Positions 3,929-23,018 of a stretch of 23,018 nucleotides of DNA are shown piece by piece; positions within the stretch are counted from its first letter, which is position 1, and every line of letters begins with the position of its first letter. This DNA is from a virus: IMG/VR virus record IMGVR_UViG_3300017963_000766, positions 1 through 23,018 of that record. One strand, 5' to 3'. Under the pieces are notes generated by a model. That model saw only the letters and a program-made list of their open reading frames with translations, was not told the origin of the DNA and searched no databases. A program made the translations under genes and the position numbers.

Positions 3929-4091
3929 TTGGTTTCTCCTCTTTTTTATATTTTTTAATAAATTTCTCCAATGCTCTTACAACTACCTTATTCGCAGAGA
4001 TTTTTTTTTCTTTTGCAATTTCGTGAATTTCTTCAAAGATTGCGTATGGTGCTCTTATATATAATGTTGCGTGAGGTTTTTGGTTTGACAT
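3921..4091 (-). CDS. small ribbon-helix-helix DNA-binding protein
   Basis: A 56-residue protein with a good ribosome binding site (AAGGAG-like, 6 bases before the ATG at 4091). It begins MSNQKPHATLYIRAPYAIFE and continues through EIHEIAKEKKISANKVVVRA. This is the Arc/CopG/MetJ ribbon-helix-helix layout: a beta strand (residues 7-13) for the DNA groove, helix A (about 15-29), the turn with KISAN, and helix B (32-45). The basic tail is rich in Lys/Glu. The gene fills the gap between the primase-helicase and the Rad52-like gene, overlapping the latter by 8 bases. RHH proteins act as dimers, often as autoregulators, so it is one candidate for binding the operator palindromes upstream of the three minus operons; this link is inferred. 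Confidence 0.82.
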   Translation of the reverse strand: MSNQKPHATLYIRAPYAIFEEIHEIAKEKKISANKVVVRALEKFIKKYKKEEKPNV

Positions 4092-4104: not shown

Positions 4105-6345
4105 TTAAAACAAATTATTTTCTGTTAATGAATAGCCTTTTATATAATTTTTATCTGTTGACAAATAGCTTACATTATTGCTTGCTATTGTGTCAACAAA
4201 ATTTTTCTTATTTTTAGGCTTATATCCATTTTCTAATGACCATTCTTTATAAGCTCTATAAACATCACTCATTGAAGTTAATGCTCGTGGTGAAGGAGAC
4301 AGCTGTTCATTAAGAAAATTTTCAGTAGGATTACTTTTCTTCCTGTATTCTTTTGTCCATTCTTTAATATCAAGTGGATGATTCAAGCTTTTATATTGTT
4401 TATAATCAAGTATCCCATAACATAAGGATGCTATAATTCCTGGTGCTTCATCTATTAATTTTTGTTCAAGATTTTTATTTGCCTTAAGTTCTCCATCTTT
4501 TGGGTTTTCTCGAAATGTTGCATCAAATTTTATAAATTTTATTCTTCTCCATACTCCTTCATCTTCAGATTTAATTGGAGGAAGCTTGTTACAAAGCATA
4601 AATAACGTATGAGTTTTCTGCCAACTTAGCGGGACAGAGCCATAAGGAGGTCGCGCACTCATAAATCCTCCCCCTGTAATTTCTTTGAACGATGATTCGT
4701 CTATTGGTTTTGTTGATGAGATTTCTTCAACATAAGCAATTCGTTTCCCAAAGAATGAATATCTTGCAGAATCATGAGTATTAGGAGACCCAACATTTTT
4801 AAATTGTTGAAGATATGATTGTTTAATTTCACCACAATAATCTCCAAGAATATTTTGAAGAACACTCATGAGTGTTGTTTTTCCATTGCCTGATTTTTCC
4901 CCTATAAAGACAAATCCTACTTCTTCTGAGGACACCCCTGCCAGTGCATACCCAAAGATCGTGTTAAGATACATTGCTACTTCTATATTATTAGAAGAAA
5001 GCTGTAGTAAGAATCTTTCCCATTCTGCTGAAATTATAGAAGATAAGTCTTCTCTGGAATATGCCTTATGTTCCCATCCAAGAGTGACAGGAATTATTTT
5101 TGATATATAATCTTTTGGTTCTCCTTGTCTAAAAACAACTTTGTCTTTTTCTAAACCAAGATCAAGTACACCATCCCGAGTTCCTATAAGGTTTGACGGA
5201 TTCCATTCATTCCCTTTAATGTTTAATTTTTCTTGAGCAAGAGCTACTATATTGTTGCGACGTGTTTTTGTGTTTATTTTCGTAAGTCGTTGTTGAATTA
5301 AATTCCCAGCTTGTGGATTTTTTTCTGCGATCGCATCAAATTCTGTTTCATAATATTCTGCGAGTTTATCTAAAATAATTGGGACATTAATATTATTATC
5401 TATTTTCCAATAATTACCATTAAAGCTCATCCATCTTTTGTTTGCATTATCATAAATCAAATGTTGTTTTCCAAACACACAAAACAATTCCATGTCACCT
5501 ATTTCATTTTTTTTTATATAATACATGGTGTCAGAAGTTTTTTTTTTATAATATCTTGCCATAGAGTCGGCACACTTGGATATCTCATCTGTGGGGAGAC
5601 CTACACGTTTCCCATATTCCTCAATAAATGAAAAAACAACAGAAGATGGAAAACCACGATGTTTTATGTATCCACTAATTTCCATTAAACGAGTATTTCT
5701 TTCTCCGTTTGATGGTGGCAAAAACTTCATTAGTGGTTGTGGAATAATTCCTGTTTCATATTGTTTTGGTGATTTTTGTGTTCCTTTGCGTTCGTTTAAT
5801 AATGCCACAAGCCATTCTGGTGGATCAGATGGATTAACGTCATTATATACACTGTATTTATAATATTGGTTATCTTTTTTAACCACGCTTCCTGGACATA
5901 CTATTTGAAATTTATTAATCATTATTTCAAAACCTATGTCTAAAGTTACTATTTTGTTTGGTAATTTCATCATATGAAGAGGTGTGTTATAAATGACATG
6001 CCATCCCTTTGGTGTTTTATGAATACGTGTGTCGAAATTAATATCATTTTGTTGCATCCAGTCAGCTGTTTTAACTATATCATCAACGTCAATAACAATA
6101 ATGTTGCTTGCAACTCCAACAGTAATTCCTGCATTTTCATTTTTTTTAAGTCTTAAGTCTTCCCAACTTCTTCCGATATCACAAAACTGTTGCCAATTTT
6201 CTTCACGGTCTGCATTTTTAGCTAATGGCCTGACTCGCACCAGTGAGTATTTTCTTGACACAAACTTTTTAAATAGGTCATATTGTGGATGTTCATGTTT
6301 TTTCGTACAATCAGGCACATGATTTAATAATTCTAAAAAATCCAT
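4105..6345 (-). CDS. Prim-Pol primase / D5-type SF3 helicase replication protein
   Basis: This 746-residue protein is the phage's main replication enzyme. An N-terminal Prim-Pol domain (about 20-185) has the catalytic VIDVDD motif (D86, D88) and KGWHVIY with H116. A PriCT-like helical domain follows (about 213-267, around GERNTRLMEISGYIKHRG). Next come a D5_N region and an SF3 AAA+ helicase with Walker A GEKSGNGKTT (482-491), Walker B RIAYVEEIS (535-543), sensor FMLCNKLPP (N586) and arginine finger VWRR (R600/R601). The C-terminus is a D5-type winged helix. Start choice: an upstream in-frame ATG at 6393 lies inside the promoter -10 box, whereas the ATG at 6345 follows GAGGAG at good spacing. 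It is the first gene of the operon and could also act as origin initiator. Confidence 0.93.
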   Translation of the reverse strand: MDFLELLNHVPDCTKKHEHPQYDLFKKFVSRKYSLVRVRPLAKNADREENWQQFCDIGRSWEDLRLKKNENAGITVGVASNIIVIDVDDIVKTADWMQQNDINFDTRIHKTPKGWHVIYNTPLHMMKLPNKIVTLDIGFEIMINKFQIVCPGSVVKKDNQYYKYSVYNDVNPSDPPEWLVALLNERKGTQKSPKQYETGIIPQPLMKFLPPSNGERNTRLMEISGYIKHRGFPSSVVFSFIEEYGKRVGLPTDEISKCADSMARYYKKKTSDTMYYIKKNEIGDMELFCVFGKQHLIYDNANKRWMSFNGNYWKIDNNINVPIILDKLAEYYETEFDAIAEKNPQAGNLIQQRLTKINTKTRRNNIVALAQEKLNIKGNEWNPSNLIGTRDGVLDLGLEKDKVVFRQGEPKDYISKIIPVTLGWEHKAYSREDLSSIISAEWERFLLQLSSNNIEVAMYLNTIFGYALAGVSSEEVGFVFIGEKSGNGKTTLMSVLQNILGDYCGEIKQSYLQQFKNVGSPNTHDSARYSFFGKRIAYVEEISSTKPIDESSFKEITGGGFMSARPPYGSVPLSWQKTHTLFMLCNKLPPIKSEDEGVWRRIKFIKFDATFRENPKDGELKANKNLEQKLIDEAPGIIASLCYGILDYKQYKSLNHPLDIKEWTKEYRKKSNPTENFLNEQLSPSPRALTSMSDVYRAYKEWSLENGYKPKNKKNFVDTIASNNVSYLSTDKNYIKGYSLTENNLF

Positions 6346-6379
6346 AGACTCTCCTCTTTTTAAATAGTTAGCTTGTTTG

Positions 6380-6418
6380 CTTGCAAGTATCATATGAGAG
6401 AGCTAGCAACTTGTCAAG
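6380..6418. promoter_or_regulatory. operator pair 1 (CTTGCAAG and CTTGTCAAG)
   Basis: Two palindromes, CTTGCAAG (6380-6387) over the transcription start and CTTGTCAAG (6410-6418) over the -35 box, have centres 30.5 bp apart (about three helical turns). Related pairs occur at the promoters near 9.7 kb and 12.68 kb. Confidence 0.6.
6389..6417 (-). promoter_or_regulatory. sigma70 promoter of the replication operon
   Basis: On the minus strand, TTGACA (6417-6412) and TATGAT (6394-6389) are separated by 17 bases, an almost perfect sigma70 promoter. Transcription should start near 6382, leaving a leader of about 37 bases before the primase ATG at 6345. Confidence 0.85.
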
Positions 6419-6429
6419 CACTTTTTTTA

Positions 6430-6458
6430 TTGACCTGGAATTAGTGAATTGTTATAAA
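6430..6458 (+). promoter_or_regulatory. sigma70 promoter for the small-terminase-like gene, giving a leaderless transcript
   Basis: TTGACC (6430-6435) and TATAAA (6453-6458) have an ideal 17-base spacer. The expected start of transcription is about 6464-6466, that is at the ATG of the next gene, and no Shine-Dalgarno sequence lies before that ATG. It is divergent from the replication-operon promoter, with 12 bases between the two -35 boxes. Confidence 0.65.
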
Positions 6459-6463
6459 CGAAT

Positions 6464-7054
6464 ATGCCTAAAGATTACAAAACAAAATATCAATATATCA
6501 AAAATGCAGAAGGCGAACTTATTATGCATGATATGGATGGTAATATTCTGTATAATAAAAAAGGGGAGCCAAGAAGGAAGCCAGGTATTTCTGGAGAAAG
6601 AAAACGAAAAAGAACAAAAAAAGCAGTTTCTCAAAAGAAAGTTGATTTTGTTAAACAAATCAGAAGAGGCTTAAATATTACTCAAGCCGCAGCCATGGTT
6701 GACTGGCACCCAAGTACATTTAATTATCATGTATTAAAAGATGAAGTCTTTGCACAGAAAGTAACGAAAGCAAGAGCAGAACTGGTTGGTGACCTTGTTG
6801 ATGTTGTAAGGGATAGCGCAGCATCTGATTATAAGGCTGCTGTTCAAATGTTAAAAGCGGTTTCTCCACATGATTGGAATCGAAAAGCTGTTACTATAGA
6901 AGATTCAAGGAGCTCCATTAATATGAGCAATGTCGATGAATTCTTGAAGATTGCTACACAAAGAGAACAAAAACTCATCGACGATAAAGATACTATTGAT
7001 ATTAAACCTATTCTTGTTGAGCAAGTTAATTTTGAAGACGCTCAAAATGAATAA
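6464..7054 (+). CDS. probable terminase small subunit (HTH protein)
   Basis: The protein has 196 residues. After a basic N-terminal region (RRKPG to TKKAV), a helix-turn-helix is visible at about 62-91 (FVKQIRRGLNITQAAAMVDW followed by HPSTFNYHV). A helical segment leads into DYKAAVQMLKAVSPHDWNRK, a block common in phage small-terminase/HTH proteins before their oligomerisation part. Small terminases recognise the packaging site on the genome and load TerL. Here the gene stands alone on the plus strand, 7 kb from TerL, between two minus operons, and its last 13 bases overlap the convergent DUF1353 gene. There is no Shine-Dalgarno before the ATG at 6464; the ATG at 6524 has AAGG 10 bases upstream and could be an alternative start. 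A transcription regulator is the main alternative role. Confidence 0.65.
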   Translation: MPKDYKTKYQYIKNAEGELIMHDMDGNILYNKKGEPRRKPGISGERKRKRTKKAVSQKKVDFVKQIRRGLNITQAAAMVDWHPSTFNYHVLKDEVFAQKVTKARAELVGDLVDVVRDSAASDYKAAVQMLKAVSPHDWNRKAVTIEDSRSSINMSNVDEFLKIATQREQKLIDDKDTIDIKPILVEQVNFEDAQNE

Positions 7055-8965: not shown

Positions 8966-9646
8966 TTACATTAATATTGTATTTAAAAAATTAGCATTGT
9001 CTACGTTTGCTCCAAGAAAAGAAACACCTTCAAGATTTGCATTCTCAAAATTTGCTAAACCAAGATCACAATCACAAAATCTTGAGTTTCTAAGATCAGA
9101 TCCAGAAAAATCAACTTCAAGCACAAATTCAGCTCCACTAAAAACACAATCTTTCAAAGGCAAATTGCTAAAATCACATGGTTCTTTAAACGTTGCGCCA
9201 ATAAAATGTCTTTTTGATATACCAATTTCGTATCTTCTTACTTTTTGTACATCACCATATTTATCTAGATATTCAAACTCTTTATCATCTCTTATCGTTC
9301 CTTTGTTTTTACATGCCATTACATCAAACAAATAATAGAATATTTTTCTTCCTACTTTATATGGCTTTGGTCCTTTTTTTTGTCTATTCCACACACAAAG
9401 TGTTGATTGTGAGACGTTTAATATAGTTGCCGCTTCAAGTGTGCTTAATATTTCAGAGCTCATCCCTTCTGGGTTTTTTACGCATTCTGTATGCTTTTCC
9501 CATTTTTTTATTTCGTTAATATGATAAAATAATACTCCTTCTTTTAGAAAAGGAATTGGCCCCTTGCCTGATTTTTGCCATCTTAATAATGTTGGCAATG
9601 TTATTCCTATTTTTTCTGCTGTTTCTTGTGCTGATAAATAATTCAT
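8966..9646 (-). CDS. tandem excisionase-type HTH protein fused to a pentapeptide-repeat domain
   Basis: The protein has 226 residues in three parts. Residues 1-55 form a MerR/excisionase-like winged HTH (YLSAQETAEKIGITLPTLLR, then a wing with FYHINEIKKW). Residues 66-112 form a second copy of the same type (LSTLEAATILNVSQSTLCVW, then GRKIFYYLFDV). Residues about 147-226 are pentapeptide repeats with the usual A(D/N)LxX rhythm (CDFSN, AEFVL, SDLRN, ANFEN, ANLEG, ANVDN, ANFLN), roughly fifteen units or nearly four coils of a beta-helix. Pentapeptide helices are known to mimic DNA (MfpA/Qnr) or act as scaffolds. It is the first gene of its operon, directly behind promoter 9683-9710, and is a candidate regulator of the shared operators. 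An anti-gyrase function is also conceivable. Confidence 0.85.
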   Translation of the reverse strand: MNYLSAQETAEKIGITLPTLLRWQKSGKGPIPFLKEGVLFYHINEIKKWEKHTECVKNPEGMSSEILSTLEAATILNVSQSTLCVWNRQKKGPKPYKVGRKIFYYLFDVMACKNKGTIRDDKEFEYLDKYGDVQKVRRYEIGISKRHFIGATFKEPCDFSNLPLKDCVFSGAEFVLEVDFSGSDLRNSRFCDCDLGLANFENANLEGVSFLGANVDNANFLNTILM

Positions 9647-10832: not shown

Positions 10833-11072
10833 TTATTTCATATAGAAACTCTTTGTCATAGAAAAATCAATAACATCTGGCTCTTCTTTAAATACAAATT
10901 TACTGTGATCTTTAATATGATTCGACCGCTTCTCATCTTCTTCTTTTAAAGAAACTTTAATCTCTATAATATTAAGACCTTCTAAGTTGGCTTCGCGTAA
11001 AGCTTTTTTAAAAATATCAAGAATCAAAGACGTTTTTTCTTTATGTGTTTTAATTATTTCTGCTTTTTTCAT
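10833..11072 (-). CDS. small unknown protein, last gene of the third minus operon
   Basis: A 79-residue Lys/Glu-rich protein: an N-terminal helix (KKAEIIKTHKEKTSLILDIF), then a probable strand (LNIIEIKVSL) and an acidic C-terminal part. Start choice: the ATG at 11072 overlaps the upstream stop as ATGA and has GGAAGAA nearby. An ATG at 11090 in the same frame would add six residues but lacks a proper ribosome binding site. No family is recognised. Confidence 0.7.
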   Translation of the reverse strand: MKKAEIIKTHKEKTSLILDIFKKALREANLEGLNIIEIKVSLKEEDEKRSNHIKDHSKFVFKEEPDVIDFSMTKSFYMK

Positions 11073-11290
11073 ACTTGTTCTTCCATCCATTTATGAGTTT
11101 CATTTATAGAATCTAAAATATCCAATAATTTATAAAAACATTTTTCTCTGATATGATCACTTAATCCTCTGTCATTTTCATAGTTCTTAGTTTTTGTTAG
11201 AAATTTATTAAGTTTATTTAATTTTATCTGAAGCTCTCTATTTATTTCATATACTTCATTCAAAACTTTAATAGAGTGTTTATTATTCAT
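11069..11290 (-). CDS. small helical protein, paralogue of the gene at 12127-12354
   Basis: This 73-residue protein begins MNNKHSIKVLNEVYEINREL. The gene at 12127-12354 encodes MNNKHSIKTLNEAQAINKEI. The two also share NxFLTKTKxYxND followed by GLSDxIRExC and a Lys/Leu-rich end, so they are clear duplicates along the full length. Both look like long amphipathic helical hairpins. AGGAG lies 8 bases before the ATG at 11290. Function unknown; two copies in one operon suggest a hetero-oligomer or dosage effect. Confidence 0.78.
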   Translation of the reverse strand: MNNKHSIKVLNEVYEINRELQIKLNKLNKFLTKTKNYENDRGLSDHIREKCFYKLLDILDSINETHKWMEEQV

Positions 11291-11303: not shown

Positions 11304-11855
11304 TTAAGAATAAGGGGGTCGCCCCCCGGTGCGATAGTTATCCTTGTTACAAATAACTTCAATAACAGCGCAGATCATGCTACCGATTACTAATTGCAAC
11401 GGTGTTCCTATTTCAAATAGCTTTCTTTTAAAGTCATTTTTCATCCATAATACTAAATGCGTAGATAAACAGGTTTCTTTCAAATGGTTTTTTATAAGTG
11501 CTATTTTAAATTTGAAATCTTTAATTTTTGAGGTTGAATTCATCCGACTATCAAACAGCAACAGCTCTAATAAAAAATATTCCAACCCATCAGAATTGTC
11601 GTCCTCTATCAGCTTTATGTCTAATGCTTTCAAGCTGGATGCTGTTTCTTGAGATGATTTAAAATCCAACGAACAAAATTCAAATGTTGATTTTAATAAA
11701 ACAGCATAATGATTATATTCATAAGAGTGGTCTTCACAAAGATCTTTTAAGCTGTCTATTTGTTTTTTAAAGTCTTTCTCTATCAGTGTTTTACGATCAT
11801 GTTTAATTAAATCCTTAGCCTTTGTTATAGCTTCTTCTAAAACTTTATCTATCAT
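11304..11855 (-). CDS. unknown protein with C-terminal membrane segment
   Basis: The protein has 183 residues. Most of it is helical and charged, with a leucine-rich stretch at about 91-101 (LEYFLLELLLF). A hydrophobic segment at about 151-169 (TPLQLVIGSMICAVIEVIC) is followed by a short polar tail, the layout of a tail-anchored inner-membrane protein. Start choice: the ATG at 11855 overlaps the upstream stop as ATGA and has GGAGG at good spacing, whereas an in-frame upstream ATG at 11894 has none. The last codons (RTGGRPPYS) are written with GC-rich codons that form the hairpin-like repeat at 11312-11329. No family is recognised; a lysis or membrane-disruption role is possible but unsupported. 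Confidence 0.72.
   Translation of the reverse strand: MIDKVLEEAITKAKDLIKHDRKTLIEKDFKKQIDSLKDLCEDHSYEYNHYAVLLKSTFEFCSLDFKSSQETASSLKALDIKLIEDDNSDGLEYFLLELLLFDSRMNSTSKIKDFKFKIALIKNHLKETCLSTHLVLWMKNDFKRKLFEIGTPLQLVIGSMICAVIEVICNKDNYRTGGRPPYS
11312..11329 (-). repeat. GC-rich polar motif copy (CCGGGGGGCGACCCCCTT)
   Basis: Minus-strand copy at the 3' end of the membrane-protein gene. It contains a perfect 5-bp G5/C5 hairpin with a CGA triloop. The codons used (ACC GGG GGG CGA CCC) are foreign to this AT-rich genome. Confidence 0.5.
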
Positions 11856-12130
11856 CTGTCTTCCTCCAAAGTAACACCATTTTGTTCTGCCCATAATTCT
11901 AAAATACCATTAAAAAACGATGGAAGTTTATTTGTGTCGGTTTCTATATTATAATAAATTTTAGTTGTCTCATTTTTCCCTAACACAAAAGAAATACGAT
12001 TTAACCATTTATAAAATTTGTCGTACAAAACATTACAATCAGGGTCTATTGTGTGAATTAAATAGATTTCTTCATCAGAACGAACAGTTACAAACAAGCG
12101 ATTTATATAAATTTTAACCTTACGTTTCAT
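11852..12130 (-). CDS. small unknown protein
   Basis: This 92-residue protein looks mixed alpha/beta: a strand-rich first half (RKVKIYINRLFVTVRSDEEI, then YLIHTIDPDCNVLYD) and an aromatic C-terminal helix (FFNGILELWAEQNGV). Start choice: the ATG at 12130 forms an ATGA overlap with the upstream stop and has AGGGA six bases before it; the ATG at 12136 is too close to that site. Both neighbours are coupled by ATGA overlaps. No family is recognised. Confidence 0.72.
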   Translation of the reverse strand: MKRKVKIYINRLFVTVRSDEEIYLIHTIDPDCNVLYDKFYKWLNRISFVLGKNETTKIYYNIETDTNKLPSFFNGILELWAEQNGVTLEEDR

Positions 12131-12354
12131 TTCCATTCCCTGTTTTTAAGATGTTTATGACCGTTCTTTATAAACTTCGAAACATCTCTCAATTTATTGA
12201 TACACTCTTCTCGAATATTATCACTTAACCCTCCATCATTTATGTAGTCTTTAGTTTTGGTTAGAAATTGATTGAAGCTATTTAATTCTGTCTCAATCTC
12301 TTTGTTTATTGCCTGTGCTTCATTTAAAGTTTTAATTGAGTGCTTGTTATTCAT
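12127..12354 (-). CDS. small helical protein, paralogue of the gene at 11069-11290
   Basis: A 75-residue all-helical protein that duplicates the 73-residue product of 11069-11290 (shared MNNKHSIK start, FLTKTK and GLSDxIRE blocks). AAGGAG lies about 10 bases before the ATG, and the ATG overlaps the upstream stop by 8 bases. The upstream 90-residue protein (12347-12619) has a similar layout (MNKHEIVNETIEI, then RTILTKAKTKELD), so it may be a third, more diverged copy. Confidence 0.78.
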   Translation of the reverse strand: MNNKHSIKTLNEAQAINKEIETELNSFNQFLTKTKDYINDGGLSDNIREECINKLRDVSKFIKNGHKHLKNREWK

Positions 12355-12619
12355 CTTGGCAAGACTCCTTAGAAGATGCTATTGATCTAATTTCATAGCT
12401 AAGGTTTGATAAAGGAACCGAAATCATGTTTTCAATATAACCCGTTGTCATTTCAATAGAATAAAAAATATCGTCTAATGTTTCTATATCCAGTTCTTTT
12501 GTTTTGGCTTTGGTAAGTATTGTTCTCATTTTTAAAACTTTTGCGTTAACGACTTCTAGCTCGGTGTCTAACTGAGACATGATTTCAATTGTTTCATTTA
12601 CGATCTCATGTTTGTTCAT
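12347..12619 (-). CDS. small helical protein, first gene of the third minus operon
   Basis: A 90-residue protein made of amphipathic helices (NETIEIMSQLDTELEVVNAK, then RTILTKAKTKEL). AGGAGG lies 7 bases before the ATG at 12619, about 35 bases after the expected transcription start. Its TILTKAKTKELD segment and overall pattern recall the duplicated proteins downstream, so it may be a distant member of the same family. No known family is recognised. Confidence 0.75.
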   Translation of the reverse strand: MNKHEIVNETIEIMSQLDTELEVVNAKVLKMRTILTKAKTKELDIETLDDIFYSIEMTTGYIENMISVPLSNLSYEIRSIASSKESCQDE

Positions 12620-12660
12620 AATCTAATCCTCCTGCTTGGTTTTTGTTTATCTTGGATGTA

Positions 12661-12690
12661 ATCATAATACTGCTTGCAAGCAAGTGTCAA
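12661..12690 (-). promoter_or_regulatory. sigma70 promoter of the third minus operon
   Basis: On the minus strand TTGACA (12690-12685) and TATGAT (12666-12661) have an 18-base spacer. The spacer is filled by the 12-bp palindrome TGCTTGCAAGCA. The start should be near 12654, with a short leader before the ATG at 12619. Confidence 0.82.
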
Positions 12691-12691
12691 G
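12671..12691. promoter_or_regulatory. operator pair 3 (TGCTTGCAAGCA and AGTGTCAAG)
   Basis: TGCTTGCAAGCA (12671-12682) is a perfect 12-bp palindrome between the -35 and -10 boxes. The partial site AGTGTCAAG (12683-12691) over the -35 matches CTTGTCAAG at 7 of 9 bases. The centres are 10.5 bp apart, one helical turn. Placement in the spacer suggests repression. Confidence 0.6.
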
Positions 12692-12720
12692 TGTTTTTTT
12701 AACTATTTTTTTTAAAAAAC

Positions 12721-12830
12721 GATAATCACTGCTAATCGCAGATAATCCGGAATAACTACTTATAATCGACTGTAATCGGATGTAATCGGATGTAATCGGA
12801 AATAATCACAGATAAATTGAGTTAATTATC
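12721..12830. repeat. ten-base phased repeat array A (NNTAATCGGA)
   Basis: TAATC or a one- to two-base variant begins at 12723, 12733, 12743, 12753, 12763, 12773, 12783, 12793, 12803, 12813 and 12823, so eleven units fall in exact 10-base register. The middle units read TAATCGGATG. Ten is not a multiple of three and no gene spans it, so this is a DNA-level signal: an origin, packaging or bending element. It begins 30 bases upstream of the third operon's -35 box. Confidence 0.9.
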
Positions 12831-12897
12831 CATTACAACCAACCATAGCTCTTGTGGTCACAGCTCATATCGAAGAGAAGGGATCCATATTAAGAAT

Positions 12898-12915
12898 AAT
12901 AGGGTCTCCCCCACC
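12898..12915 (-). repeat. GC-rich polar motif copy (GGTGGGGGAGACCCTATT)
   Basis: Non-coding copy of the recurring motif, between repeat arrays A and B. It reads on the minus strand and can form a small GGG-AGA-CCC hairpin. It stands out in very AT-rich sequence. Confidence 0.5.
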
Positions 12916-12970
12916 AATTGGCTTACTCTCTGGATTGTTTTATAACTTTTTTTGAGAAAATATATTGAGT

Positions 12971-13050
12971 AAACAAAAGGAAATCGAAGCAAATCAAAGC
13001 AAATCAGAGCTAATTCTGGATAAAAACCACACACTTGATGTAATCACTTG
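12971..13050. repeat. ten-base phased repeat array B (AAATCNNAGC)
   Basis: AAATC/TAATT units begin at 12981, 12991, 13001 and 13011. The same register continues with TAATC at 13041 and, outside this interval, at 13071. A 17-base stretch (12999-13015) is repeated exactly in array C (13116-13132). Between arrays A and B (12831-12970) there is AT-rich sequence with one copy of the GC-rich motif and no gene. Confidence 0.85.
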
Positions 13051-13070
13051 TAGTTGACCGTGAAAGACAA

Positions 13071-13175
13071 TAATCCGGGATAACAGCAAATCGGAGTAAA
13101 TCTAAGGAAATCAGAGCAAATCAGAGCTAATTACAGATAATCTGATATAATCGGACGTAATCGCTGATAACCCAC
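13071..13175. repeat. ten-base phased repeat array C (WAATCNGANN)
   Basis: After TAATCCGGGA at 13071 and a 7-base phase slip, units begin at 13088, 13098, 13108, 13118, 13128, 13138, 13148, 13158 and 13168 with exact 10-base spacing. Consensus is (A/T)AATC followed by a G/A-rich half; AAATCAGAGC occurs twice in tandem. Same family as arrays A and B. Confidence 0.9.
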
Positions 13176-13286
13176 ATTGATTTTTGGGGTAAAAATATGG
13201 TATAGATCGAGCTATAGAACACAGAGTGACAGAGAAAGGTCTTTGAAAAAACGTGTAACTTAGAACGGGGAAGGTCACCCCACATT

Positions 13287-13302
13287 GCGTCAGCGCTGAC
13301 GC
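13287..13302. repeat. 16-bp perfect palindrome GCGTCAGCGCTGACGC
   Basis: A GC-rich perfect palindrome, the longest seen outside terminators, lying just after the phased arrays. It could bind a dimeric protein or extrude as a cruciform. It directly follows a GC-rich motif copy (13267-13288). Confidence 0.8.
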
Positions 13303-13509
13303 GCCGACGGCACGTAGTGACGGAGGCTGCATCTTTATAACAAAGGCTCCTCCTCTAAGCAATGTAAAAAAATACAGGGTTAGTCCTGTTCTTGTCATCT
13401 CTTTTCTGCGGCTTACTGTTGATCCCACAACCATGTATAAAATATCCACCTTGCGGTTCGGTCCCGCTGCCCTCTACGGCTCCTCTTTCGTCAAAAAATA
13501 CTAAACTCC

Positions 13510-13529
13510 GGGCGGCGGTGACCCTATCG
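13510..13529 (+). repeat. GC-rich polar motif copy (GGGCGGCGGTGACCCTATCG)
   Basis: The first plus-strand copy going left to right within the non-coding region. The nearest copy to the left (13267-13288) is on the minus strand, so the orientation switch lies between them. Confidence 0.5.
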
Positions 13530-13623
13530 TTTCTTTCCCTCGCTATTATTGCTATTGACTCTCATCAGAGAATTATGGTAACCCTGTTAATACATAACCC
13601 GAGCGGATACCACCTCCTTCTTC

Positions 13624-13651
13624 TTGTTTTTATTAGCTTTTGTGATAAAAT
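13624..13651 (+). promoter_or_regulatory. probable promoter of the late (packaging/structural) operon
   Basis: TTGTTT (13624-13629), a 16-base spacer and an extended -10 (TG-A-TAAAAT, hexamer 13646-13651) point toward the late genes. Transcription would start near 13658, giving a leader of about 330 bases before the first late ATG at 13992. Confidence 0.45.
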
Positions 13652-13785
13652 CTTAGGTGGGGAATTCGGGGTGTGGATTATGATAATAGGGAGGTGAATT
13701 ACGACGGCCGCGATGACTGGGCAGAAACAATAATAACATCAGAGGGTTATTAACAACTAACCTGAGGGTAATTACCGTATGGTAG

Positions 13786-13805
13786 TGAGACAGTTTGAGA
13801 CAGTT
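13786..13805. repeat. tandem direct repeat of TGAGACAGTT (2 copies)
   Basis: Two exact adjacent copies of a ten-base unit, 13786-13795 and 13796-13805. It has the same period as the phased arrays but a different sequence. Confidence 0.75.
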
Positions 13806-13991
13806 GTTAGATGTTAGGCTACCGGAGATGCAGAACCAGGGGGGAGCGACCTTGTTATGGTTGGGTTGGAAACCAAATGAACCTTATAGGGTTCAATAAT
13901 ATAGACAAAGTAGTGGGGTACCCCAAAATTTTTGCTTGGGTTTTTATCACATACACCCCTCACGAAATTTCAACTTGCATACGGGGGACTG

Positions 13992-14162
13992 ATGTCTAAG
14001 GCGAGGTTAGGAAGTGGAAAGAGGTTTGCAGAATTAAAGAGGAAGTTATCAGCGCGAGGAGTAAAGAATCCTGGAGGGTTGGCGGCGTGGATAGGTCGTC
14101 GTAAGTATGGGAAGAAGAAGTTTGCGAAGTTATCGTTAGCGGGCAAGCGTAGAGGCAAGTAG
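13992..14162 (+). CDS. small basic phage protein upstream of TerL
   Basis: This 56-residue, strongly basic protein (Lys/Arg about one third) has the sequence pattern RFAELKRKLSARGVKNPGGL, then AAWIGRRKYGKKKFAKLS. It recalls small proteins found next to the terminase genes in many phages (RGVKNPxxLAAxIGRKKYGxxxF); their function is unknown, and nucleic-acid binding is likely from charge. The ATG at 13992 is preferred over an in-frame TTG at 13932; the upstream GGGGGA is a modest ribosome binding site. Its stop TAG shares one base with the GTG start of terL, so terL translation is coupled to it. Codon choice is more G-rich than in the early genes. Confidence 0.8.
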   Translation: MSKARLGSGKRFAELKRKLSARGVKNPGGLAAWIGRRKYGKKKFAKLSLAGKRRGK

Positions 14163-15544
14163 TGTCAAATACAGAGACAAGATATGAGGAGTTACGATCG
14201 ATATGGCGTCGTGATCCTGTATATTTTTGTATCCATGCACTTGGCATGAGTCCGACGAATCAGCAGGTTGATTTAATGCGTGCAGTTGTTGATAACAAAT
14301 TTATTGCATGCAAGAGTGGACATGGTACAGGAAAGAGTACTGCGTTAGCTGCATTGATCTGGTGGTTTTTAATTTGTTTTGATGATGCGCAGGTTCCGTG
14401 TACTGCTCCGAGTGCTCCGCAATTGAAAGATGTTTTGTGGGCGAGAATATCAGAGTTGAAAGCAGGCTTGCCTCCGTTTATTGGTGAGCAATGGGAAGTA
14501 ATTGAGGGTCGAGTAAAACATGTAGAGAAGAAGCATTCATTTGCTGTAGCTCGAACAACCAAGATGAATCAAACTGATGCGTTGCAGGGATTTCATGCAG
14601 ACAATTTATTGATTGCAGTCGATGAAGCTTGCGGAGTTGCAGAAGATGTTTTCATGCCAGTCTTGGGTGCGCTCACCAGTACGTCTGGTAATAACAAAAT
14701 TGTATTGATTGGTAACCCCACTCGTGTGAGTGGGTTTTTTTATGGGTGTTTTTCAAAGGACTCTTTTTGGAGGCAGCTTACATTTAACGCAGAGAAGTCT
14801 GATCTTGTCAGTGGTAAGCAGATTAATTTCTGGCGCAAAAGATATGGAGAAGATTCAGACCAATATAGAGTACGAGTAAAAGGACAGTTTCCTCTCAGCG
14901 ACGACAGCTCACTTTTCGACAGGGGTGACCTAGAACTTGCCAAAACCTTGGAGTACTCGGATGACTTTCCAATAATATGGGGACTTGATGTTGCTCTTGG
15001 TGGCTCTGATAATAGCGTTCTTGCCAAACGTCATGGACATGTCATAAAAGAAATTACGAAATTTTCGTACGCTGATGCGATGATGGTTACGAATTTTGTA
15101 ATGGGTAATTATAATCAAACACCGATGAGGGATAGACCACAGGCTATTATGGTCGATTATATGGGTGTCGGTGCTGGTGTGTGTGATAGATTACTTGAAA
15201 AAAAATATCCTGCAAGAAGAATTCAAGCTGGCTCCTCTGCTTTTGAAAATCATCTTTATGCAAATTTGCGTGCAGAAATGTATTGTCGGCTTATGCGTGA
15301 GTTTAGAGAAAGAAGTTTAAAGATTCCAGATAATGACGAGTTGGTTGACGAATTATTATCGATTTCGTATAAATACGATACTAAAGGAAGATATTTGTTG
15401 AAATCAAAACAGGATATGAGAAGAGCAGGAGTAAAGTCACCCGACAGTGCCGATGCTGTTGCTCTGACTTTTTCTGAAACTCTTCCTGTTGATTTCGTTG
15501 CGTTTAGTGAGCCGACTAATTATATGAATTATGCAGTTTTATAA
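14162..15544 (+). CDS. terminase large subunit
   Basis: This 460-residue protein is the packaging motor ATPase and headful/cos nuclease. The ATPase domain has Walker A GHGTGKST (53-60), Walker B LLIAVDE (149-155, with D154 and E155) and the coupling block VLIGNPT (181-187). The RNase-H-like nuclease domain has D276 (WGLDVALGG), D332 (IMVDYMGVG) and D431 (SPDSADAVAL). The start is GTG, the only sensible one, overlapping the preceding stop by one base with AGAGG upstream. A strong terminator-like hairpin lies inside its coding sequence (14717-14741). The likely small subunit is encoded 7 kb away at 6464-7054. Confidence 0.95.
   Translation: MSNTETRYEELRSIWRRDPVYFCIHALGMSPTNQQVDLMRAVVDNKFIACKSGHGTGKSTALAALIWWFLICFDDAQVPCTAPSAPQLKDVLWARISELKAGLPPFIGEQWEVIEGRVKHVEKKHSFAVARTTKMNQTDALQGFHADNLLIAVDEACGVAEDVFMPVLGALTSTSGNNKIVLIGNPTRVSGFFYGCFSKDSFWRQLTFNAEKSDLVSGKQINFWRKRYGEDSDQYRVRVKGQFPLSDDSSLFDRGDLELAKTLEYSDDFPIIWGLDVALGGSDNSVLAKRHGHVIKEITKFSYADAMMVTNFVMGNYNQTPMRDRPQAIMVDYMGVGAGVCDRLLEKKYPARRIQAGSSAFENHLYANLRAEMYCRLMREFRERSLKIPDNDELVDELLSISYKYDTKGRYLLKSKQDMRRAGVKSPDSADAVALTFSETLPVDFVAFSEPTNYMNYAVL
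14717..14741 (+). terminator. intrinsic-terminator-like hairpin inside terL
   Basis: CCCACTC (14717-14723), loop GTGT and GAGTGGG (14728-14734) are followed at once by seven T's (14735-14741). It is encoded within the NPTRVSGFF stretch at the ATPase coupling motif. It fits the textbook intrinsic terminator form, but translating ribosomes may prevent its folding. Confidence 0.55.
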
Positions 15545-15734: not shown

Positions 15735-17348
15735 ATGAGTACTCCTCTTGAAAATTTGAGTAACCTAGTTGACGAGTTGGAATCAAAAAGATCTAACTGG
15801 ATGAATTTATGGCAAGATCTTGCTGATCATATTTTGCCATCAACAAATAGGTTTACTCTTAAAGAATCTCCTGGATTGCAAAGGCATCAATATATATATG
15901 ATTCTCATCCGGAACATGCAGTCCATCTGTGGGCTTCATCATTGCATTCAATGGTTTTTGGAAACGCAATGAAATGGTTCGGATTAACTGTGTCTAATAA
16001 GGAGGTCGCAAGTAGAGGACGTGTGATTCATGCTCTTCAGGAACGTACTGATATTATGCTGGATGTTTTGAGTCAAAGCAATTTCTATGGGCAAGCATAT
16101 GAAATGCTACCTGGACTTATTGTCTTCGGAACATCTTGTATGTCATGTCTTGAAGACGAAGAAACAGCAGTTCGTTTTAAAAATACTCACCTTGCAGAAG
16201 TTATCATACGACCAAATGCTCGTGGAGATGTCGATACTGTTTTCCGTAAGTTTAATATGACTCTGCGGAATCTGTATTCTCAATTCCCAGGGTACGATTT
16301 CGACGATATGAAAAGGGAGTACGGGACGGCGGGGGAGACCTCCATTGAGATTTGTCACGCAGTTTTTCCTTCTGATGATTATGGCATGAATTATTGGGAT
16401 TCTAATATGCCATATACTTCTCTTTATTTTACTTCGAATGGTAAACATTTGTTGTCCGTAGGTGGATTTGAAGACTTTCCATATTTTGTAACAAGATGGT
16501 TTGTTGGCCCTGGAGAAGATTATGGAAGAAGTCCTGGTATGCAAGCGTTGCCTGATATTAAGACATTGTATGCCATGAGTCGTACTTCTCTTGCAACTGC
16601 TCAAAAAATGGCTGACCCTCCGTTGGCTGTTTCAGAAGGATATACTTCTGCTCCATTAAAAATGGGGCCTGGTGATATAAATTATACAAGACCTGCTATG
16701 GGGAATATTACTCAATTCGCGCCAACTGGTGATTTGTCTTATGCGCATAGTGAAATTTCTGATAGGCGGGCACAAATTAGAAGTATCTTTTTTAATGATC
16801 AGTTACAGTTGTTAAATAAAACAATGATGACTGCGACTGAAGTTGTACAGCGTGTTGAAGAAACAAGAAGAATCCTTTCCCCAATCAATGAACGTCTTGA
16901 GTCGGATTTTTTACGTAGAGTTGTTATGAGAGTTTATAACGTTCTTGATAGAAAAGGATATTTTCCTGATGCTCCTGTTGAGTTTGAAGAATTTGGTGTT
17001 GATGTTGAATTTTTATCTCCTCTTGCTCGTGCTCAACGAATGAATGATCTTAATTCTGTAACCCGATTATTTGAAGTATTGGCTCCCTTTGCACAAGTTA
17101 ATCCTCAAATATTACAGGGAGTTAGTGGCGAGGACTTGCTGCAGTATGCCTCTAAGGTTCTTGGTGTTCCAAGAGAAGTATTAAAAAGCAAGTATGAAGT
17201 TCAGGAAGAAAAAGAAGCTGCAGCAAGATTAATGCAAATGCAACTTGAGTCTCAACAGGCACAAAGTTTTACTGAATCATTGGAAACTGTTGCGGGTGCT
17301 CAGGAAAAGTCTGCTAAAGCTCAAACTTTGGTTGAAGGTATTTCTTAA
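15735..17348 (+). CDS. portal (head-to-tail connector) protein
   Basis: This 537-residue protein is the twelve-fold ring at one capsid corner through which DNA enters and the tail attaches. It resembles the T7 gp8-like head-tail connector family (about 530-560 residues). Recognisable blocks are the N-terminal SKRSNWMNLWQDLADHILPS, then WASSLHSMVFG, the central YGRSPGMQALPDIKTLYAMS and the long barrel/crown helices near TMMTATEVVQRVEETRR. The C-terminus is Gln/Glu-rich and coiled. GGAG lies 10 bases before the ATG. Its stop TAA is followed directly by the next ATG. It contains a GC-rich motif copy at 16328-16346. Confidence 0.93.
   Translation: MSTPLENLSNLVDELESKRSNWMNLWQDLADHILPSTNRFTLKESPGLQRHQYIYDSHPEHAVHLWASSLHSMVFGNAMKWFGLTVSNKEVASRGRVIHALQERTDIMLDVLSQSNFYGQAYEMLPGLIVFGTSCMSCLEDEETAVRFKNTHLAEVIIRPNARGDVDTVFRKFNMTLRNLYSQFPGYDFDDMKREYGTAGETSIEICHAVFPSDDYGMNYWDSNMPYTSLYFTSNGKHLLSVGGFEDFPYFVTRWFVGPGEDYGRSPGMQALPDIKTLYAMSRTSLATAQKMADPPLAVSEGYTSAPLKMGPGDINYTRPAMGNITQFAPTGDLSYAHSEISDRRAQIRSIFFNDQLQLLNKTMMTATEVVQRVEETRRILSPINERLESDFLRRVVMRVYNVLDRKGYFPDAPVEFEEFGVDVEFLSPLARAQRMNDLNSVTRLFEVLAPFAQVNPQILQGVSGEDLLQYASKVLGVPREVLKSKYEVQEEKEAAARLMQMQLESQQAQSFTESLETVAGAQEKSAKAQTLVEGIS
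16328..16346 (+). repeat. GC-rich polar motif copy in the portal gene (GGCGGGGGAGACCTCCATT)
   Basis: Plus-strand copy inside the portal gene (peptide GTAGETSIE). It can form a 5-bp stem (GGGGG-AGA-CCTCC, one G/T pair). It lies in a local patch of GC-rich codons. Confidence 0.5.
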
Positions 17349-17609
17349 ATGGATAAAATTGATAAGCGTTCATATTATCGAGATGTGTTTAATTCAGAAG
17401 CAGGAAAAATTGTATTAAATGATTTAATGAAATTCTGTCATTTAGATTTCTCTATATATAATAATGAAGTAAATGTGAATGATATGATTTTTATGAGTGG
17501 TGAACGAAATGTTGGGTTATACATTTTGAATATGTTACATAGAAAACAAAAAGAAGTATTGGTTGATTTGATGAATGAGTTGGATGAGCAAATGGGAGGA
17601 GTTTGGTAA
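17349..17609 (+). CDS. Bbp19-like small phage protein
   Basis: This 86-residue protein has the pattern of the Bbp19 family named from Bordetella phage BPP-1: YYRDVFNSEAGKIVLNDLMK at the N-terminus, then FMSGERNVGLYILNMLHRKQ, with a short helical C-terminus. Genes of this family sit between portal and scaffold in many podoviruses; their function is not established. The ATG directly follows the portal stop and its own TAA directly precedes the next ATG, so the three genes are translationally linked. Confidence 0.82.
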   Translation: MDKIDKRSYYRDVFNSEAGKIVLNDLMKFCHLDFSIYNNEVNVNDMIFMSGERNVGLYILNMLHRKQKEVLVDLMNELDEQMGGVW

Positions 17610-18398
17610 ATGGTAGAGAATATTAATCAAGATTCTGTAGTTGGAAGTAACCCAGATGAAGCAAGTGATATAACGCTCGTCAATGAGGCTATTAATGAAG
17701 GAAGTAAAGTAGCACCGGAGTGGATGGGCAATAGTGTTGATTCAAAATATAGTGAATTATCAAAATTTAAAAGTGTTAATGATTTAGCAGATGCATATTT
17801 GTCTATTGAAAGTAAAATGGGAAGGCCTTCTGGGATACCAGAAAGTCCAAATGATTATAAATATGATTTCCCAGAAGAATTTCAATATGATGAAAAATTG
17901 GAAGATAAGTTTCGTGCCCTTGCTCATGAGGCAGGGATAACACAAGACCAATATTCCAAGTTTCAGGATTTTGCTGTTTCTATTGCGACTGAGGTGGCGG
18001 AGACCAATCAGGTAGAATCAAAGCAAATGGGTGATGATAATCGTGAGAAAATGGAACAACTAGAGAAAGAATGGGGTGATAATTGGGATAAAAATATTAC
18101 GAATGCTCGTAAAGCACTAAAAAAGTTTGTTGGGGATAATGGTGTAGAGTGGGCAGAAAGTCGTGGTATTGATAATGATCCTGTTTTTTTAAAATTGTTG
18201 TCGGGAATGGGTAACAGTATGAAAGAAGATACAATACGTGAAGGTGAATCAATGATGAGTACAGAGGCTATTAGAAGGAAAATTGCAAGCATTTCTGGAG
18301 ATAAGTCTCATCCTTATCGAGATGCATTACATCCTGGTCATGATCTCGCGGTTAAGGAAGTAAATGATTTATATAAAAAACTACATAATACGGGGTAA
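17610..18398 (+). CDS. capsid assembly scaffolding protein
   Basis: This 262-residue acidic, helical protein has a typical scaffold layout: an N-terminal acidic region, SVNDLADAYLSIESKMGRPS, the IPESPNDYKYDFPEEF block, and a charged helical middle (LEKEWGDNWDKNITNARKAL). The C-terminus is helical (HDLAVKEVNDLYKKLH) and presumably contacts the capsid protein. Scaffolds guide shell assembly and leave before DNA packaging. Its position directly before the major capsid gene (3 bases between stop and next ATG) supports the call. GGAGGAG precedes the ATG. A weaker GC-rich motif copy lies at 17993-18010. Confidence 0.87.
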   Translation: MVENINQDSVVGSNPDEASDITLVNEAINEGSKVAPEWMGNSVDSKYSELSKFKSVNDLADAYLSIESKMGRPSGIPESPNDYKYDFPEEFQYDEKLEDKFRALAHEAGITQDQYSKFQDFAVSIATEVAETNQVESKQMGDDNREKMEQLEKEWGDNWDKNITNARKALKKFVGDNGVEWAESRGIDNDPVFLKLLSGMGNSMKEDTIREGESMMSTEAIRRKIASISGDKSHPYRDALHPGHDLAVKEVNDLYKKLHNTG

Positions 18399-18401
18399 AT
18401 T

Positions 18402-19295
18402 ATGACTCAATTGTCTACTCAGCCCACTGGTAATCCGAGTACTTGGTGGGTAGAACAGTATAGAAACAATGTATTACTACTGGCACAGCAGGAAATGTCT
18501 CTGCTACGTCCTTTTGTTCAAAGTGGTCAGATTACTGGCGCTGGTGCATTTGAAGAAAGTATTGGAGAAATTGAATTTGAGAAAGTAAAGACTCGTTTTC
18601 AGCCTACTCCAAGAACTGAAGTACAGCATGGAAGAAGGTATTATAAACTTGATTCTTTTGTTGCTGCTCCTATGATTGATAGGTTTGATAAACTTAAACA
18701 GCTTGTTGACCCAACTAGTAGCTATGTGAAATCTGTTGCTGCTGGTGCTGGAAGGAAATTCGATAATATTATTATTGAAGCTGCTATTGGCGAATCTGCT
18801 AATGGTATTCATGGTTCTGATTTGCAGCCATTTCCTGAGTCTCAGAAAGTTAACGATGGAACACCGGTTGGTATGGATCTGGCTGCTTTGCGTGCTATCC
18901 GTCGTATTTTTGATGATAATGCAGTTCGTGATTATGAAAAGAAATGTCTTGTAGTGGCTCCGAGTCAGATTGAGGCATTGCTTGGTGAAGAGCAGCTGAC
19001 TAGTTCTGATTATAATGTTGTTCGTGCATTGGTTAATGGTCAGATTGATGAGTTTATGGGTTTTAGGTTTATAAAAAGTACTTTACTTCCTTATGATGCT
19101 GATACTCATACTAGAACTTGTTTTGCATTCTCAGAAGAAGCATTGAAACTTGGTCTGGGTGAAGATTATAATGTTACTATTGATCGAGATATAACACATA
19201 TGAATAATTGGATTATTCTTGCCACTATGACAGTTGGTGGTATTCGTCTTGACGACAAACGTGTTGTTATGATTAATGTAGATGAAAGCGCTTAA
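18402..19295 (+). CDS. major capsid protein
   Basis: This 297-residue protein is of the HK97-fold capsid type (Phage_capsid_2-like group). Visible blocks are an N-terminal helix (WWVEQYRNNVLLLAQQEMSL), TRFQPTPRTEVQHGRRYY with LDSFVAAPMID, the spine-helix region DLAALRAIRRIFDDNAV, CLVVAPSQIEALL, and the C-terminal strand set FMGFRFIKSTLLPYD ending in VGGIRLDDKRVVMI. No prodomain is obvious, in line with a separate scaffold gene just upstream. Codons are comparatively rich in GCT/GGT/CGT, as expected for a highly expressed gene in this genome. Confidence 0.9.
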   Translation: MTQLSTQPTGNPSTWWVEQYRNNVLLLAQQEMSLLRPFVQSGQITGAGAFEESIGEIEFEKVKTRFQPTPRTEVQHGRRYYKLDSFVAAPMIDRFDKLKQLVDPTSSYVKSVAAGAGRKFDNIIIEAAIGESANGIHGSDLQPFPESQKVNDGTPVGMDLAALRAIRRIFDDNAVRDYEKKCLVVAPSQIEALLGEEQLTSSDYNVVRALVNGQIDEFMGFRFIKSTLLPYDADTHTRTCFAFSEEALKLGLGEDYNVTIDRDITHMNNWIILATMTVGGIRLDDKRVVMINVDESA

Positions 19296-19307
19296 GGAGG
19301 AAGTATA

Positions 19308-19796
19308 ATGGCTATTGTATTAAGCCCTGTAAAAAGTAAGTTCTATGGAGAACTATGCGATAGTAATAATCAAGAATTTGTTAAAAGTGGAGAATCAATT
19401 GTAAGTTCTGCTTATATCGGTGGTTCAGTACATCACTATGGTGATTATATTGATTATACTCAGCATGGTGGATCTGCAGCTAATGAATATGTTTTATGTT
19501 GTTTTTTGCCAGAAACTGTTGATTTGGTTATTGGTGCTGCTCTTTCGGTATATACAAATGGTACTGGTTCGGCTGATGTTTTTGCATTGAGTAATCTTGA
19601 GTCAGATTCAGATAGAATTAGACTTACTCCAGCACTTGATATTAGTGCTGCAGGACCAGGTATTGTTACTATGGAAGAAATTTCTGATAAGCCACTTTGG
19701 CTCAGTGTCGAAGGATATAAATATATTGCTGTTCATAATAATGCTGCCAATAACGCTGCTGCTCTTAAGGTAAGGCTTTCTTTGGCTTTTAGGTAA
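19308..19796 (+). CDS. capsid-associated (decoration-like) protein
   Basis: This 162-residue protein is mainly beta and low in charge: Gly/Ser/Ala-rich strands such as SIVSSAYIGGSVHHYGDYID and LVIGAALSVYTNGTG. A C-terminal part ends in ALKVRLSLAFR. The gene follows the major capsid gene after 12 bases with a very strong AAGGAGG. It is closed by a strong terminator (19805-19836), so it belongs to the capsid expression unit. Position, composition and strong translation signal fit a head decoration or second head protein present in many copies. No defined family is recognised. Confidence 0.65.
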   Translation: MAIVLSPVKSKFYGELCDSNNQEFVKSGESIVSSAYIGGSVHHYGDYIDYTQHGGSAANEYVLCCFLPETVDLVIGAALSVYTNGTGSADVFALSNLESDSDRIRLTPALDISAAGPGIVTMEEISDKPLWLSVEGYKYIAVHNNAANNAAALKVRLSLAFR

Positions 19797-19804
19797 AAGT
19801 AAAT

Positions 19805-19836
19805 ATTTGAAGAGCCAATAATTTGGCTCTTCAAAT
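19805..19836. terminator. bidirectional-type terminator after the capsid genes
   Basis: A 14-bp perfect stem (19805-19818 with 19823-19836) has a 4-base loop (TAAT). It is AT-framed with a GC centre and followed by TTAATATGGATTTTTG. It probably reduces read-through from the capsid genes into the tail genes. The tail genes would then need read-through or their own promoter, which I do not see. Confidence 0.8.
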
Positions 19837-19856
19837 TTAATATGGATTTTTGATTT

Positions 19857-20447
19857 ATGCCTTTTTCTAAGACTCAAGTTTGTAATCTTGCTTTGAATTC
19901 TATTGGACAAGAATCAATTGTAACTTTTGATGAAGATTCAAAAAATGGCGAGCTATGTCGATTATGTTATGATTTTGTTTTATTGTTAATGTTGAATAAA
20001 AGTACATGGAAGTTTTCAAAAAGACGAATTACTCTTGATCAAGAAGAATTACCGCCGCCAGCATGGGGATATCTTCATCGCTTTGCTTTACCAAGTGATT
20101 GTTTGCGGGTTATAATGGATGATGATGAGTATACAAGTTATAATTGTTCTCAAGGATATAAAATTGAAGACAATTATGTGTTAACTAATTCTGATTCTGT
20201 TAATATTTTGTATGTTTCAAAAGATGTTAATATCCAACATGCAAGTCCTGTTTTTATTTCTGCTTTTGTAGCTCGATTGGCTGCTCAAATGGTTATTAGG
20301 GGAGAAGGAACTGAAAGTATGTTACAAAACATGACAGCTCTTGAACAAGAACGTTTTCTTGAAGCAGCTCTTATTGAAGATAATGAAGGTTCATATGCTA
20401 AAAAACCATCATCATGGATTGATGTGAGATATACTTATGGGCGGTAA
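19857..20447 (+). CDS. tail adaptor protein (T7 gp11/tail tubular A-like)
   Basis: This 196-residue protein starts with the family's typical TQVCNLALNSIGQESIVTFD. A helix-rich core (NGELCRLCYDFVLLLMLNKS, then WKFSKRR) and the block YLHRFALPSDCLRVI follow. The end, ASPVFISAFVARLAAQMVIR, is also typical. This adaptor ring connects portal and tail nozzle. Length (about 195) agrees with T7 gp11. The ribosome binding site is weak, and the gene lies behind the capsid terminator. Its last 11 bases overlap the start of the nozzle gene, so the two partners are cotranslated. Confidence 0.88.
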   Translation: MPFSKTQVCNLALNSIGQESIVTFDEDSKNGELCRLCYDFVLLLMLNKSTWKFSKRRITLDQEELPPPAWGYLHRFALPSDCLRVIMDDDEYTSYNCSQGYKIEDNYVLTNSDSVNILYVSKDVNIQHASPVFISAFVARLAAQMVIRGEGTESMLQNMTALEQERFLEAALIEDNEGSYAKKPSSWIDVRYTYGR

Positions 20448-22635: not shown

Positions 22636-22637
22636 TT

Positions 22638-23018
22638 ATGTTTTATAGAAATTTTTTAGAAAAAGACTTAATAGACTTTAATCCTCGTGAAAGAGATTTT
22701 GAGTTATTTGACGATGATTGGATTGAATTAATTGAAAAACAAATTTGTTCATCAATTAAAGTTTTTACATTGACTGATGGATGCAAAGTATATTCTATTA
22801 TTGGTCAAGTAAATTATGAAGATTTTTATTCGATATGGATGATATCCTCTGACAATATTGTTCTTTATAATAAACAGAAAGATTTTATTAAGTGCTTTAA
22901 TGAATTATATTTACAAGAAAAACCTGATAATGATAAACCAATTAAAATTGTTGTTGATAAAACAAAACCATCTACTATAAAATTTATTAGTAGGTATGGC
23001 TTTGTTCCTGAAATTAAA
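22638..23018 (+). CDS. GNAT-like phage protein, probably virion-associated (3' end outside window)
   Basis: Open from the ATG at 22638 to the right edge, 127 codons. It starts MFYRNFLEKDLIDFNPRERD and shows an alpha/beta arrangement (KVFTLTDGCKVYSIIGQVNY, then YSIWMISSDNIV). The visible end, TIKFISRYGFVPEI, resembles the last helix-strand of GNAT acetyltransferases (...FYxKLGF.P). Many podoviruses have such a protein, related in place to T7 gp13, right after the nozzle gene, and before the internal virion proteins. The stop of the nozzle gene is 2 bases upstream. Acetyltransferase activity is not shown, as the binding loop is not clearly recognised. Confidence 0.65.
   Translation, partial: MFYRNFLEKDLIDFNPRERDFELFDDDWIELIEKQICSSIKVFTLTDGCKVYSIIGQVNYEDFYSIWMISSDNIVLYNKQKDFIKCFNELYLQEKPDNDKPIKIVVDKTKPSTIKFISRYGFVPEIK

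Follow-up and report, generated by a model that had tools for sequence, protein, structure and literature searches.

A short word that recurs at steps of ten bases, about one turn of the DNA helix, in a gene-free part of a phage genome raises the question of which protein docks there and for what task. The locus lies in a 23-kb IMG/VR virus record (IMGVR_UViG_3300017963_000766), whose 23,018 analysed nucleotides are referred to here as the window. A preliminary description had offered four readings at once, namely an origin bound by the Prim-Pol/D5 protein, a site for a ribbon-helix-helix (RHH) or helix-turn-helix (HTH) protein, a pac site and an intrinsically bent region. The pac reading, with the small terminase TerS as binder, was found to be the best supported, on the grounds of the direct repeats at the cos site of 936-type phages, the terminase neighbourhood and the geometry of TerS rings; the bend is supported by calculation.

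Architecture and genomic setting of the repeats

The window encodes a podovirus-type portal protein (PF12236, E 1.5e-121), together with TerL, a P4-family Prim-Pol/D5 primase and Rad52, YqaJ and RusA proteins. Most of the remaining structural genes are supplied by a sister contig (L006, IMGVR_UViG_3300028840_006182; 18,266 bp), which is 100% identical to the window over positions 15801-23018 (7,218 bp). Since the last ORF of the sister contig and the first ORF of the window appear to be two parts of a single tail-fibre gene, both contigs together probably make up almost all of a genome of about 34 kb. TerL and portal searches revealed no close relative beyond this overlapping contig.

Three arrays were delineated, all on the plus strand. 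Array A (12723-12832) consists of 11 head-to-tail 10-bp units of the form (T)AATCNNNNN, starting at positions 12723 to 12823, with 8 of the 11 carrying an exact WAATC. It is followed by an unphased spacer of 138 bp (12833-12970). Array B (12971-13087) has exact WAATC words at 12981, 12991, 13001, 13041 and 13071 and a TAATT at 13011; it keeps a single 10-bp frame, in positions ending in 1, which extends to 13081 with weaker units interspersed. Array C (13088-13177) comprises nine units with starts from 13088 to 13168, seven of them exact. The 26 units thus counted, where about 25 had been announced at the same array coordinates, share one strand, and 20 of them read exactly (A/T)AATC. They form three blocks of ~100 bp (A, 110 bp; C, 90 bp; B, a frame of ~110 bp). 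The 17-base block said to be common to arrays B and C was recovered as GCAAATCAGAGCTAATT at 12999-13015 and 13116-13132.

Across the 26 units, A is invariant at positions 2 and 3 (26/26), followed by T at position 4 in 23 and C at position 5 in 21 units. The rest of the unit is less conserved and purine-rich, with A at position 8 in 16/26 and G at position 9 in 15/26, and pairwise identity across the five spacer bases ranges from 0.47 to 0.60. The combination of divergent spacers with a strictly kept frame points to selection acting on the phased core and not to recent tandem duplication.

The arrays are located where leftward early genes give way to rightward late genes. The region was confirmed to be gene-free, as only short unsupported ORFs (58 and 112 codons) occur between the minus-strand gene starting at 12619 and the plus-strand ORF starting at 13989. 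The large terminase gene terL (14162-15544, plus strand; PHROG 2, E 3.9e-45) lies downstream of array C, at a measured distance of 987 bp, in agreement with the 1 kb given before. Immediately 5' of terL, a small, very basic ORF of 57 aa (13989-14162, plus strand) has no family match. The segment 13240-13980, between the arrays and terL, is gene-free, has ~46% G+C and contains several small inverted repeats as well as an exact tandem of two copies of TGAGACAGTT at 13786-13805; an Rfam search gave no match, this segment included. On the early side, the operon beside the arrays encodes two paralogous small proteins (MNNKHSIK...; 11069-11290 and 12127-12354, minus strand), reflecting a local gene duplication.

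Periodicity, uniqueness and predicted curvature

Self-match at lag 10 over positions 12721-13180 was 0.469, compared with 0.276 ± 0.021 in 2,000 dinucleotide-preserving shuffles of the same segment (z 9.4), and harmonics were present at lag 20 (0.443) and lag 30 (0.405). The highest value in these shuffles at any lag from 2 to 39 was 0.351. An equal autocorrelation in shuffled sequence had been named in advance as the result that would speak against the period, which therefore withstood this comparison. Exact WAATC-N5-WAATC pairs numbered 13, as opposed to 0.025 per shuffle, and all 13 such pairs of the 23-kb window fall within the arrays.

In the window and the unshared remainder of the sister contig, neither exact phased pairs nor, on both strands, phased triples with up to two mismatches were detected outside the arrays, which are the sole dense repeat cluster in the two contigs. 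The presence of phased repeats at one place only implies a single-site cis element. The reading of the arrays as one operator of a regulon was rejected, given that the window and sister contig hold no further phased triples. When the arrays were searched with BLASTN in 50,697 phages, a single match of 30 bp was obtained, which is at chance level.

The confinement to one place also bears on a regulatory role, in which the arrays would nucleate a head-to-tail filament of winged-HTH subunits, comparable to BldC, RdfS, Cox or Xis, and govern either the neighbouring early promoter or the switch from early to late genes. The candidate binder is encoded at 8966-9646 (minus strand) and carries excisionase/MerR-like HTH domains (PHROG 66, E 8.4e-11; HTH_17) fused to pentapeptide repeats. 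Precedents are at hand in BldC, which occupies 9-bp direct repeats containing AATT in head-to-tail fashion (PMC5859096), and in RdfS, of which one subunit is bound per 10 bp (PMC11963761); these filaments share with the window direct repeats with an AAT core and about one turn per subunit. In addition, the leftward early operon has a strong sigma-70-like promoter (TTGACA-18-TATGAT; 12661-12690, minus strand) that agrees with the consensus at 11 of 12 bases. It is 33 bp away from array A and is overlapped, at 12654, by a ten-base word, GGATGTAATC, that recurs unchanged among the array units. This promoter copy, however, is within chance expectation, with ~0.2 such words expected nearby by our own estimate, and a second target promoter with phased units is absent. 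BldC repeats measure 9 bp and a clear motif is lacking for RdfS, whereas the window presents one long site with a step of exactly 10 bp and an AATC core, and 9-bp AATTNNNNC repeats of the BldC type were not found in the arrays. As 26 units also far exceed the needs of a promoter switch, we regard a filament as improbable. The HTH/pentapeptide fusion itself is unusual; its best NCBIfam match is the Qnr family, at a score well under the cut-off, and it is perhaps a DNA-bound gyrase modulator.

Curvature was predicted with a dinucleotide wedge model, which placed blocks A, B and C at the 99.1, 98.8 and 99.9th percentile across the window. The bent region of the preliminary description is thereby supported as a prediction, but bending alone leaves the conserved AATC core unexplained. 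The same difficulty is met by the idea that the arrays have no dedicated binder and are curved, minisatellite-like DNA grown by local duplication, with at most host nucleoid proteins bound. It would account for the high predicted curvature, and many viral WAATC arrays are indeed near-identical tandem copies; here, the divergent spacers around an invariant AA in exact frame make such an origin very unlikely.

Origin and partition readings

The strongest rival to packaging is a phage replication origin. The arrays would then act as short iterons to which the P4-family Prim-Pol/D5 primase-helicase, or an unrecognised initiator, binds cooperatively, with opening of the A/T runs that flank them, at 12694-12720 or 12940-12970. 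The primase (4105-6393, minus strand; TIGR01613, E 1.6e-49) with its C-terminal Pox_D5 region is a candidate binder, and the status of the arrays as the only dense repeat cluster fits this role. Iteron origins of the P4 type and SPP1 oriL/oriR likewise combine direct repeats with nearby A/T-rich DNA, and oriR of SPP1, with direct repeats and an A/T-rich element, is situated within the late region (PMC6316719).

Further support came from 80 TerL relatives, where 58 DnaA boxes were counted in the 1 kb upstream of TerL (0.84/kb) and 12 elsewhere (0.02/kb). In 70 non-redundant loci, the terS-terL gap contained 46 DnaA boxes compared with 1.0 expected after shuffling, and 11 of the 70 had at least two. 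Among these relatives (L341-L420), a subset has the boxes clustered 100-550 bp upstream of TerL, some at 11-bp steps (e.g., L374), and accompanied by C-tracts; judged from sequence, this suggests the gap as a possible location of the origin in that subset. The array region of the window is the positional equivalent of this gap, and a primase-like gene, annotated by eye, is found a few kb upstream of the gap in the relatives, so that the window arrays might be an origin with iterons of its own. The relatives differ from the window in having terS immediately 5' of terL. Finally, a similar 10-bp TTAATCCCTG array is found in two contigs (L044, 1456-1490; L094, 8146) with ssb on one side and a replication-initiator-like gene on the other, an origin-like arrangement.

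Several properties of the window do not conform with an origin. The DnaA box TTATNCACA is absent from the window and the sister contig. Duplex stability is ordinary over 50-100 bp, and the best 100-bp stretch is only in the top 26% for easy melting, although on a smaller scale one A/T run of 25 bp, at 12694, ranks among the least stable 0.7% of the sequence in the window. GC skew, which had been put forward as a check for an origin, turns at the arrays but proved uninformative. With plus-strand genes of the left arm showing positive or near-zero skew (0.17, 0.24 and 0.02) and minus-strand genes mostly negative skew, the turn is an effect of gene strand, and the skew minimum was discarded as an origin signal. 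DnaA boxes occur in many iteron-type origins, though not in all, and origin iterons rarely form eleven head-to-tail units at exactly 10 bp, as array A does within a total of 26 units. Taken with the evidence in its favour, an origin is possible, if on balance unlikely; if true, a Prim-Pol/D5 phage would here use iterons spaced one turn apart, which would be unusual.

The parC sites that are bound by RHH ParR proteins are likewise built from direct repeats about one turn long. The arrays might accordingly be a partition or centromere-like site for the Arc-like RHH protein encoded at 3921-4091 (minus strand), a weaker candidate binder, by comparison with ParR/parC plasmids with 10-11-bp direct repeats; a paper on a Clostridium ParR mentions 10-bp direct repeats. 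Against this, the RHH gene is part of a recombination operon 8.6 kb from the arrays, which differ from parC in being a three-part array near terL. No match to ParM, TubZ or ParA, and hence no partition NTPase, was recognised among the window proteins scanned and the part of the sister-contig proteins covered. A centromere is the most improbable of the roles considered.

A candidate packaging site

Phased repeats in one orientation at a single place, their predicted curvature, their position ahead of terL and the presence of a terS gene in this phage are direct observations, and they are combined most readily in a packaging site. We tentatively propose, with a probability of roughly 45%, that the ~450-bp region is a single cis docking site for packaging initiation (pac or cosB) by the phage's own HTH TerS. 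A TerS site is favoured because one core per turn over 90-110 bp of curved DNA suits sequence-specific wrapping and because the window encodes an HTH small terminase (6464-7054, plus strand; PHROG 4102, E 1.4e-8; PHROG 4044, E 1.5e-4). TerS rings have a circumference of ~300 Å, with adjacent HTH motifs about one B-DNA turn apart, and curved segments of ~100 bp have been proposed to wrap the ring (Greive et al., PMC4737164).

In the proposed mechanism, an HTH protein of the phage, most likely TerS, would line the three curved segments, with its subunits arranged head to tail and spaced one helical turn apart. Each AATC would contact one HTH of the TerS ring, and the DNA would be wound round it. 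TerL would then be recruited to cleave the DNA in the vicinity, for instance within the 138-bp spacer that separates array A from array B. By analogy with pacL-pacC-pacR of SPP1 (PMC6316719), array A on one side and arrays B and C on the other may form two binding zones flanking the spacer as cleavage segment. The pac sites of SPP1 and SF6 resemble the window in the HTH TerS, repeats around a spacer, curved DNA, a nearby terminase and ~100 bp per binding segment. They differ in that the SPP1 boxes are few and do not form helically phased arrays.

Among general features of pac and cosB sites, the position upstream of the terminase and an encoded HTH small terminase were both found, and the lack of an easily melting 100-bp element and of a DnaA box speaks for packaging. 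Other observations count against it. The HTH of SF6 TerS shows little preference for pac repeats (PMC4737164). The window's terS adjoins the primase gene divergently (6393-6464), which leaves it ~6 kb away from the arrays and ~7 kb away from terL. A motif-free period scan detected a 10-bp array in 0 of the 80 TerL relatives (36-41% identity) and in none of the known relatives, including HTVC010P and HTVC204P. Searches found no homologues of TerS or of the small basic ORF, and an AlphaFold model of TerS computed without alignment (pLDDT 46) was too poor for use.

The closest described match contradicts the earlier statement that the arrays resemble no familiar iteron set. In 936-type lactococcal phages, "5-6 direct repeats (AATCT)" have been reported in the cos region along with putative terminase-binding sites (PMC6105707), and inspection of 936 genomes revealed these repeats at exact 10-bp steps between cos and terS, with variable spacers, e.g., TAATCTAAATTAATCTATTTTAATCTAGTAAAATC. 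The 936 cos repeats (D1-D6, beside the R sites) thus share with the window the AATC core, here in 20 exact WAATC units, the head-to-tail 10-bp steps and the variable spacers; both sets are gene-free, upstream of the terminase genes and on the same strand as terS. The 936 phages have 5-7 units in one block directly beside cos and terS, compared with ~26 units in three blocks in the window. Their TerS (phrog_1437/PF07141) has no sequence similarity to that of the window, which counts against packaging, and an adjacent terS of the same family is lacking here. The 11-nt 936 cos sequence CACAAAGGACT had no match with up to two mismatches in 11746-14751 and no exact match in the window, and no inverted repeat matching those that flank the 936 cos was seen beside the arrays. 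The window repeat is unusual in extent and, with the 936 cos repeats as a known, smaller relative, is a variant and not a new category.

Viral contigs were also scanned for WAATC at 10-bp steps. A five-unit threshold gave 68 stretches, a large share of them from lactococcal 936-type phages. The arrays outside this group (about 40 of the 68) were not clearly commoner than the 32 stretches obtained with a control period of 13. Among the matches listed, 36 arrays had at least four WAATC at 10-bp steps on a contig with a detectable TerL. Of these, 13 were placed 0-3 kb upstream of TerL, compared with 4.3 predicted from the lengths of the contigs (p 4e-5), and the 3 kb downstream of TerL contained none, where 5.3 were expected. 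Arrays upstream of terS-terL were present in the unrelated contigs L019, L020, L024, L049, L079, L087, L114 and L130, and nine of ten array-neighbour genes picked by eye as TerS-like matched small-terminase families, eight different ones. The controls followed a weaker but similar trend, with CTAAW arrays at 10 bp near TerL in 7 of 20 cases (3.5 expected; three of them one phage) and 13-bp WAATC arrays in 3 of 11 (1.4 expected). The enrichment is therefore not specific to motif or period, and the statistic alone is no proof of a terminase role; in part, it may reflect the gene-free space in the terminase region. The genome-contig matches listed were assumed to be mainly minisatellites, judged by their titles and multiple matches.

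Two further kinds of phased element were encountered in this survey. One, seen in L106 (6464-6498, in minus-strand orientation) and conserved in 18 records like it, has four AAATC words at 10-base steps with variable spacers, close upstream of a DNA-methylase-like gene; it represents a separate family of phased AATC elements. In L023, L032, L105 and about 19 more records, (A/T)AATCC words at 10-base steps run up to the start codon in the leader of a conserved gene starting MSFANLKKQSKLG; they are possibly an mRNA operator.

A broader form of the packaging reading holds that the three ~100-bp blocks, with one AATC per turn matched 1:1 to the HTHs of the TerS ring, would represent a sequence-specific, nucleosome-like wrapping for packaging, and that phages whose TerS families are unrelated, those of the 936 type among them, would have arrived independently at the same code of one AATC per 10 bp. 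We consider this extension doubtful. How TerS chooses phage DNA is a long-standing question, for which the wrapping model predicts one contact per helical turn. The best-studied pac site has no phased array, and the natural array described here would offer a clean substrate for testing sequence-specific ring wrapping.
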